This document shows, one piece after another, positions 23,975 through 44,478 of a DNA stretch of 64,000 bases. The translations under genes and the position numbers were made by a program. The notes below the pieces were generated by a model. That model ran no database searches. It was not told the origin of the DNA and saw nothing but the letters and a program-made list of their open reading frames with translations. The first letter of the stretch is position 1. Each line of letters begins with the position of its first letter. This stretch comes from Caulobacter segnis (GTDB lineage: Bacteria > Pseudomonadota > Alphaproteobacteria > Caulobacterales > Caulobacteraceae), in contig NZ_CP082923.1 of assembly GCF_019931575.1 (NCBI RefSeq), positions 992,001 through 1,056,000 on the forward strand. Reading direction: 5' to 3'.

Positions 23975-24412
23975 ATGATCGTGGAAGACAAAGCGACCCT
24001 GATCGAGCTTACCGCTGAAATCGTGGCCAACTATGTGGCCAATAATTCGACGCCGGTTTCGGATCTTCCGGCGCTCATCCGGGCCACGCATGACGCCTTG
24101 GCTGGTATTGGCGCGCCGCCCGCGCCGACCGTGGAAGCGGTGAGCAAAGCCACGCCGGCTCAAATCCGCAAGAGCATCACGCCCGAAGCGCTGATCAGCT
24201 TCGAGGATGGCAAGCCTTACAAGACGCTGAAGCGCCACCTGACGACCCACGGCATGACCGTGGCGGAGTACAAGGCCAAGTGGGGGCTGCCGAACGACTA
24301 TCCGACGACCGCGCCCGCCTACAGCGAGGCTCGTTCGAAAATGGCCAAGGCCCTGGGCCTGGGCCAAGGCGGCCGCAAGGGCAAGGCGCCGTCGCGCGGC
24401 CGCAAGGGCTGA
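23975..24412 (+). CDS. mucR1: Ros/MucR-family transcriptional regulator
   Basis: 145 residues. N-terminal oligomerisation helix (about 7-45, 'LIELTAEIVANYVANNSTPVS'), then the Ros/MucR finger at about 70-110 with 'FEDGKPYKTLKRHLTTHG' and the family end 'AEYKAKWGLPNDYP', closed by a basic Gly/Arg tail. MucR1/2 in Caulobacter control the S-to-G1 transition genes together with CtrA and SciP. The symbol rests on family plus recalled gene order with the second copy at 43368. The two Cys zinc ligands are replaced (Ser75, Asp78); His88 and His92 remain. Confidence 0.85.
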   Translation: MIVEDKATLIELTAEIVANYVANNSTPVSDLPALIRATHDALAGIGAPPAPTVEAVSKATPAQIRKSITPEALISFEDGKPYKTLKRHLTTHGMTVAEYKAKWGLPNDYPTTAPAYSEARSKMAKALGLGQGGRKGKAPSRGRKG

Positions 24413-43367: not shown

Positions 43368-43787
43368 ATGGAAGACCAATCCGATCTGATCGAGATGACG
43401 GCGGGCATTGTCTCCGCCTATGTCGGCAACAACGTGGTCGCCACCGCGGATCTGCCGGCCTTGATCAAGCAAGTTCACGCGGCGCTGGCCACCGTCGGCG
43501 CGCCGGCATCCGAACCGGCTCCGGCGCCGAAGGAGCCCGCCGTCCCGGTCAAGAAGTCGATCACGCCCGACTTCCTGGTCTGTCTGGAGGACGGTCGCAA
43601 ATTCAAGTCGCTGAAGCGCCACCTGCGCACCAAGTACGACATGACCCCCGAGGACTACCGCGCCAAGTGGGGGCTGCCCAAGGATTACCCGATGGTCGCC
43701 CCGAACTACGCCGAGGCGCGTTCGAACCTCGCCAAGCAGATGGGCCTGGGCCAGGGCGGTCGCAAACCGGCTCGCAAGGCGAAATAG
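43368..43787 (+). CDS. mucR2: Ros/MucR-family transcriptional regulator, second copy
   Basis: 139 residues from ATG 43368. Same architecture as the gene at 23975: N-terminal helix ('[21 protein letters not shown]'), Ala/Pro linker, finger '[19 protein letters not shown]' and tail '[26 protein letters not shown]'. Here one Cys (72) and His85 remain, while the second Cys is Asp75 and the second His is not conserved. Upstream open sequence (from 43275) is not coding. Followed by a terminator and the mopJ-like PAS gene. Confidence 0.85.
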
Positions 43788-43834
43788 TCGAGTCGGAACA
43801 GAAGCTTGGCCTTAAGCGGCCCGAGACATCGCAG

Positions 43835-43872
43835 CGCCCGTCGTCCGAACCCGGACGGCGGGCGTTTCCTTT
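43835..43872 (+). terminator. Rho-independent terminator of mucR2
   Basis: CGCCCGTCGTCCG, AACC loop, nearly exact complement (one G-U pair), then TTTCCTTT. Confidence 0.8.
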
Positions 43873-43879
43873 GACGGTT

Positions 43880-43964
43880 GACTCCCACAGGGAATCTCGT
43901 CGCGCGGCATGTTTTTCGCTTGCCGCCGATTCGTTCCTTAAGCGATAGTGAATCGAAGTGATTC
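43880..43964. promoter_or_regulatory. Cluster of five GANTC (CcrM) sites upstream of the mopJ-like gene
   Basis: GACTC 43880, GAATC 43892, GATTC 43928, GAATC 43950, GATTC 43960: five CcrM methylation sites in 85 bp, where about one per 300 bp is expected at this GC content. Confidence 0.6.
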
Positions 43965-43989
43965 CAAGGGCTTGTTGAGGACTCTGAAG

Positions 43990-44478
43990 ATGTCCGCGCA
44001 ATTGAGCGCATCCGCTACGGCGGCCCGCGCTCATCAGGAGATGTTCGCCTACTGGGCGTCCCTCCGTCGGGGGGCGAGCCTCCCCGCGCGCGTCGATCTG
44101 CATCCCTCGAGCATGAAGCGGCTGCTGCCGACCGTATCGTTGATCGATGTGGTCAACCAGCCGCGCGACTATCGCCTGCGCCTGGCCGGCACCGGTCTCT
44201 ACGGTGTCTACGGCCGCGAGATCACCGGCCGCATGCTGGGCGACGTCTACAACACCGCCGCCTCTGAGTACTGGCGCAAGGAGCTGGACAAGGTGGTCGA
44301 CGAGCGTCGTCCAGGCGTCGGCGTCCACAGCCTGGCTTGGCGCGGCGCCCCGCACATGTCGATCCTGTGGCTGCGCCTGCCGCTGGCCACCAACGGCAAG
44401 GACGTCGACATGATCCTCGGCTACGACGCCGTGGTCGGCGCCCAGGCCGAAAGCGCCTCGGGCATCCGGGCGGCCTGA
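43990..44478 (+). CDS. mopJ: Single-domain PAS protein, MopJ-like
   Basis: 162 residues from ATG 43990 (GAGGA 8 nt upstream). The PAS core spans about 45-145 with 'YRLRLAGTGLYGVYGREITGR' and 'VHSLAWRGAPHMSILWLRLPL', of the PAS_5 type; there is no output domain. Single-domain PAS protein MopJ of C. crescentus promotes motility at the cell poles through the cell-cycle circuit; the symbol is assigned on fold plus position directly after mucR2 and close to fliOP, as I recall from that species. It is not verified by alignment. Five GANTC sites lie upstream. Confidence 0.6.
   Translation: MSAQLSASATAARAHQEMFAYWASLRRGASLPARVDLHPSSMKRLLPTVSLIDVVNQPRDYRLRLAGTGLYGVYGREITGRMLGDVYNTAASEYWRKELDKVVDERRPGVGVHSLAWRGAPHMSILWLRLPLATNGKDVDMILGYDAVVGAQAESASGIRAA

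Follow-up and report, generated by a model that had tools for sequence, protein, structure and literature searches.

A conserved array of GANTC sites, unusual in its density, in the mopJ promoter of Caulobacter

The promoter of mopJ (PmopJ), known from a model species and found here in another Caulobacter, carries GANTC sites in an array that is conserved and unusually dense. By direct count, six sites lie within the 105 bp (43880-43984) ahead of the ATG at 43990 in the window, that is, the whole stretch of 64,000 nucleotides of Caulobacter segnis DNA that was analyzed (features are collected in Table 1, where sites are named by their distance from this ATG). An earlier sequence-only reading had reported five sites in 85 bp (43880-43964), directly before this start codon. 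All five positions were correct, as was the placement before the ATG, but a sixth site at 43980-43984 had been overlooked; the cluster is thus confirmed, and is stronger than first stated. We consider it very probable that PmopJ belongs to the sigma70 promoters and is activated by GcrA acting on GANTC methylated by CcrM. Control of mopJ by GcrA and CcrM, the core of this interpretation, has already been published for C. crescentus; the comparison across relatives is new.

Table 1. Features of the mopJ locus, in window coordinates; rows refer to the alignment of 105 upstream regions
Feature	Position	Strand	Basis or conservation
mucR-family gene (mucR2)	43368..43787	+	Pfam ROS_MUCR, 177.9 bits
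Terminator-like hairpin 3' of mucR2, then TTTCCTTT	43834..43865	+	Folding
GANTC site -110 (TTGACTC)	43880..43884	+	GANTC in 68/105 rows
GANTC site -98	43892..43896	+	GANTC in 37/105 rows, all of the same genus as the window
Putative -35 region CTTGCC	43919..43924	+	Conserved columns, 3-14 changes each
GANTC site -62 (CGATTCG), in putative spacer	43928..43932	+	GANTC in 93/105 rows
CtrA-box-like TTAA-N7-TGAA over putative -10	43938..43952	+	Row counts
Putative -10 GATAGT	43944..43949	+	Conserved columns (3-13 changes per column); 18 nt separate it from TTGCCG at 43920-43925
GANTC site -40, right after putative -10	43950..43954	+	81/105 rows, N = A or T
GANTC site -30 (GTGATTCCAA)	43960..43964	+	94/105 rows, N = T or A
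Shine-Dalgarno-like GAGGA, overlaps the -10 GANTC	43977..43981	+	Direct reading
GANTC site -10, the sixth	43980..43984	+	87/105 rows; N = C 36, A 36, T 14, G 1
mopJ, single-domain PAS_5 protein, 162 aa	43990..44478	+	NCBIfam and Pfam

The gene that follows the cluster is mopJ: its product passes the NCBIfam model CellCycRegMopJ with 282.6 bits (cut-off 200) and scores 68.3 bits with Pfam PAS_5. In C. crescentus, where the gene is CCNA_00999, GcrA is reported to occupy PmopJ by ChIP-seq, the promoter carries m6A (its trace is shown beside that of a ccrM deletion strain) and GcrA depletion lowers PmopJ-lacZ activity, while MopJ accumulates in S phase together with CtrA, and induction by (p)ppGpp is also described (PMC4432633). 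MopJ is further described in the literature as supporting CtrA accumulation in this species. The sequence-only reading had proposed a promoter controlled by GcrA and CcrM and timed to the cell cycle; by analogy with the same gene in C. crescentus, GcrA-bound and m6A-marked at its promoter, these data support the proposal (PMC4432633). It is also backed by C. vibrioides DSM 9893 (L013/L038), which has all six GANTC sites at the positions of the window, and by the content of the host genome, which encodes GcrA-family proteins and a full-length relative of CcrM. Two GcrA-family genes are present, with 209 bits (L118) and 179 bits (L119) to PF07750. The only PF01555 methylase of the genome carries a RAMA domain and gives a full-length match of 817 bits to the solved CcrM chain 6pbd_A; its NCBIfam CcrM score of 641.6 bits is below the cut-off of 830, yet CcrM is still its best NCBIfam model. 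The second GcrA-family gene (179 bits) lies at G000:C1:2906733-2907179, beside the main gene.

GANTC is rare in this genome. The earlier expectation of about one site per 330 bp holds as a figure derived from base composition (1364 sites expected in 464 kb), but avoidance of GANTC brings the actual density below this: the window contains 73 sites, whereas its dinucleotide shuffles average 276, and 843 were counted in 864 kb of the genome, about one per 1025 bp. With a uniform Poisson model, its density taken from the first 464 kb and scaled to the whole genome, 0.012 clusters of five sites in 85 bp and 0.0006 of six in 105 bp are expected, values that somewhat understate chance, given the reported enrichment of GANTC in the intergenic DNA of such bacteria (PMC3973325). 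That enrichment is the point in favor of a functionless cluster produced by chance or composition, a reading to which we give almost no credence. The cluster survey, which covered 864 kb including the window, or 17% of the genome, detected seven stretches with at least three GANTC in 105 bp, of which PmopJ has six, one has five and five have three; PmopJ is the densest cluster of this sample and its sole stretch with six sites. Comparable clusters before many genes would have weakened the sequence-only reading, and the 864 kb hold a single other one with five sites. Among seven control pentamers of matching composition, none exceeds four copies in 105 bp (first 464 kb). The neighboring gene offers a local control: the 110 bp before mucR2 contain on average 0.85 GANTC, versus 5.6 before mopJ, in 27 usable loci of the genus (out of 30; at L010 mucR runs off the contig, and L029 and L030 have no mucR match).

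A split of GANTC between coding and intergenic DNA by a crude mask of open reading frames was dropped: in a genome this GC-rich, the mask is unusable because spurious long frames arise, covering even PmopJ. The stretch with five GANTC sites lies between two flagellin genes (Pfam assignments) at G000:C1:4159981-4160078, two of its sites, as judged by eye, being inside a terminator-like palindrome.

Conservation across the family weighs most heavily against chance, which it renders very unlikely. The alignment comprises 105 upstream regions from Caulobacter, 20 further genera of the family and one unassigned MAG; these rows correspond to 67 distinct upstream sequences plus 40 from other genera, minus two duplicates (L066 and L067). 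L020/L016 and L048/L017 are identical over the compared stretch and yet were kept among the 105. The 40 were drawn from 87 matches outside the genus, and the set leaves aside five further genus genomes of the same search. Among the 67 distinct sequences the same GANTC positions recur, and the contigs with names that carry these sequences are mostly Caulobacter. Each of the four proximal sites (-62, -40, -30 and -10) is present in 77-90% of the 105 rows. On the tree of mopJ coding sequences, the GA and TC letters of these four sites underwent a mean of 5.4 inferred changes, against 12.3 for their own N columns; the other columns of 43915-43989 have the same mean of 12.3, and the comparison of GA/TC with all other core columns, taking columns as independent, gives a Mann-Whitney P of 1.3e-5. 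The GA/TC letters appear to be kept while N drifts, which is what selection for a methylation site, rather than for a fixed longer motif, would leave. The -30 site is an exception, with 6 changes in N and 3-6 in its GA/TC letters, and does not by itself show drift of N.

The array is not uniform across groups. Among 22 group labels, the -62 site is missing from 4, the -40 site from 10, the -30 site from 6 and the -10 site from 8; part of this absence is due to long leaders and misalignment, as in the g15 loci with long leaders (L150, L152 and L153), which are misaligned and were scored as lacking sites. Spacing was counted relative to the -30 site in the 87 rows with a recognisable GANTCCAA: the three other proximal sites lie exactly at -32, -10 and +20 in 39 rows and are shifted by 1-2 bases in a further 20, and 28 rows lack at least one site within the counted range. 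Common distances between sites are 22, 10-11 and 20 bp, and one Caulobacter group has 11 additional bases, about one helical turn, between -62 and -40. These spacings near one, two and three helical turns are suggestive, the comparison having no chance model behind it. Upstream of the array, TTGACTC and TTAAC seemed largely to exclude each other (both in 1 of 105 rows, Fisher P 0.0002), but this contrast was not used, as it ignores relatedness and the anchor is misplaced in some rows.

A consensus promoter scan of the region upstream of mopJ returned no match, and the putative -35 and -10 elements of Table 1 are read from conserved columns. CGATTCG, at 43927-43933, stands between CTTGCC and GATAGT, so that the site at 43928 likely lies between -35 and -10. 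An extended GcrA motif is said to have been defined by Haakonsen 2015. It is given as YGAKTCK (PMC7987155), and in the window only the -62 site fits it on direct reading, unlike the other five. The same holds across the alignment, in which YGAKTCK is found at -62 in 87 of 93 rows and elsewhere in few or none (-110, 3/68; -98, 0/37; -40, 10/80; -30, 5/94; -10, 0/87). The -40, -30 and -10 sites of the window are conserved and yet do not match this motif.

One explanation for the conservation of two of these sites is that they are kept not for methylation but as a hairpin of the mopJ leader RNA, GAUUCC pairing with GGANUC and hiding the Shine-Dalgarno sequence. The -30 and -10 sites are indeed complementary apart from N, and the latter overlaps the Shine-Dalgarno-like GAGGA, but any two palindromic GANTC sites are complementary in this way. 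The pairing was predicted in 3 of 8 folded leaders (L058, L161 and L165), with energies 0.9-1.7 standard deviations better than single-letter shuffles; against this, the leader of the window folds no better than its shuffles (-7.0 versus a mean of -7.1), and the central N pair is impossible in 48 of the 84 rows having both sites. Failing on both the N pairing and the folding of the window leader, this explanation is not supported, and we regard it as improbable.

The positions of the sites can be compared with those at other cell-cycle promoters of C. crescentus. Here, 96 cell-cycle start sites are reported to have a GANTC in their upstream 50 bp, only 11 of them with more than one, against the six in 105 bp of PmopJ (PMC4287350). 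At 40-60 min, a GANTC between -10 and -35 is associated with activation and one outside these elements with the lowest levels; a third group of start sites peaks at 80-100 min (PMC4287350). GANTC is found within 50 bp upstream of only 31% of GcrA-bound cell-cycle start sites; the S-phase promoters ctrA P1, mipZ and podJ resemble PmopJ in that their promoter regions contain GANTC or are bound by GcrA (PMC4287350).

For activation by GcrA, the reading we prefer, the methylated -62 site between the -35-like and -10-like elements would recruit GcrA together with RNA polymerase, and transcription would start near 43956. Replication of the locus would leave the sites hemimethylated and so tie firing to S phase. 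MopJ made in S phase would then help CtrA to re-accumulate. On the contig, dnaA is found at base 726, and mopJ at 1.036 Mb out of 5.17 Mb; if the terminus is opposite, mopJ lies about 40% along the replichore from origin to terminus. The -40, -30 and -10 sites, about one to two helical turns apart, are on this reading under selection as GANTC, and would most likely add contacts for GcrA or strengthen the readout of the methylation state. CtrA may in turn switch PmopJ off again through a CtrA-box-like sequence that covers the -10.

This last element has TTAA in 78 rows, TKAA in 77 and both halves in 71 of 105, counts to which no chance model is attached; in the 24 rows without the -40 GANTC, TTAA is kept in 12 and a second half starting with TKA in 12. 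In genus g7, which holds a named Phenylobacterium, none of 10 rows reaches 7 or 8 of the 8 positions of the box, one row being unscored because of a misplaced anchor. Levels of mopJ RNA are reported to rise on loss of CckA function (PMC12421884), and we offer the hypothesis, which fits both this result and the CtrA-box-like sequence, that CtrA represses PmopJ.

How the further sites act can be conceived in two ways. Tentatively, PmopJ may be a multi-site sensor of methylation, in which the spacer site recruits GcrA, the three other proximal GANTC sites, lying close to one face of the helix, are co-selected with the CtrA box on the -10, and the number of methylated or hemimethylated sites is read to give a sharp pulse; no graded, spacing-dependent GANTC array of this kind was found in the portions of the literature searched. 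Slightly more doubtful to us is a scheme in which the extra sites oppose activation: GANTC around the start, when bound or hemimethylated, would repress and so narrow the pulse, and CtrA would repress later from the -10 box. Some PmopJ sites could indeed act in this manner, given that in C. crescentus a GANTC located outside -10/-35 is associated with the lowest levels at 40-60 min (PMC4287350), and the frequency of TTAA-N7-TKAA and the rise of mopJ on loss of CckA function would agree with it. This literature support, however, consists of group averages rather than of tests at PmopJ, and the box counts carry the limits given above, including the genus g7 rows.

How many GANTC sites PmopJ has, or how they are spaced, is not discussed in the literature text searched, figures and supplements aside; nor did the portions searched offer an explanation for the purpose of sites beyond the one that is likely activating. 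C. crescentus and Brevundimonas subvibrioides are reported to have strongly different targets of GcrA and CcrM, and in the latter no YGAKTCK-type preference was described, apart from a slight preference for a C preceding the site (PMC7987155). Within Caulobacter, rewiring of these targets looked limited, ctrA and divL being among those that look conserved (PMC7987155). PmopJ would be a further member of this conserved set, its GANTC sites holding their positions in much of the family, and, because its sites differ (one fits YGAKTCK and several do not), it provides a compact promoter for asking what non-activating GANTC sites do.

A MopJ match at E<=0.001 was found in all 61 genomes of the genus, strong in 59 and weak only in G018 and G039, and at E<=1e-15, 21 of 22 genera have a match in at least one genome. 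In genus g3, 11 listed genomes of 2.5-3.4 Mb are without a MopJ match at E<=1e-15; 19 further matchless genomes are not itemized. Of 30 loci checked in the genus, 28 have a MucR gene beside mopJ in the same orientation, truncated in one case by the end of the contig, and no MucR gene was found beside mopJ at the other two, L029 and L030. The cluster had been placed downstream of a mucR2 terminator, and this placement stands: a terminator-like hairpin at 43834-43865 follows mucR2, with a 14-pair stem, a 4-base loop and a z-score of -4.4 versus shuffles, though a simple terminator scan did not report it. A second MucR-family gene lies in the window at 23999-24364 (G000:C1:1015999-1016364), and the genome contains five genes of this family.
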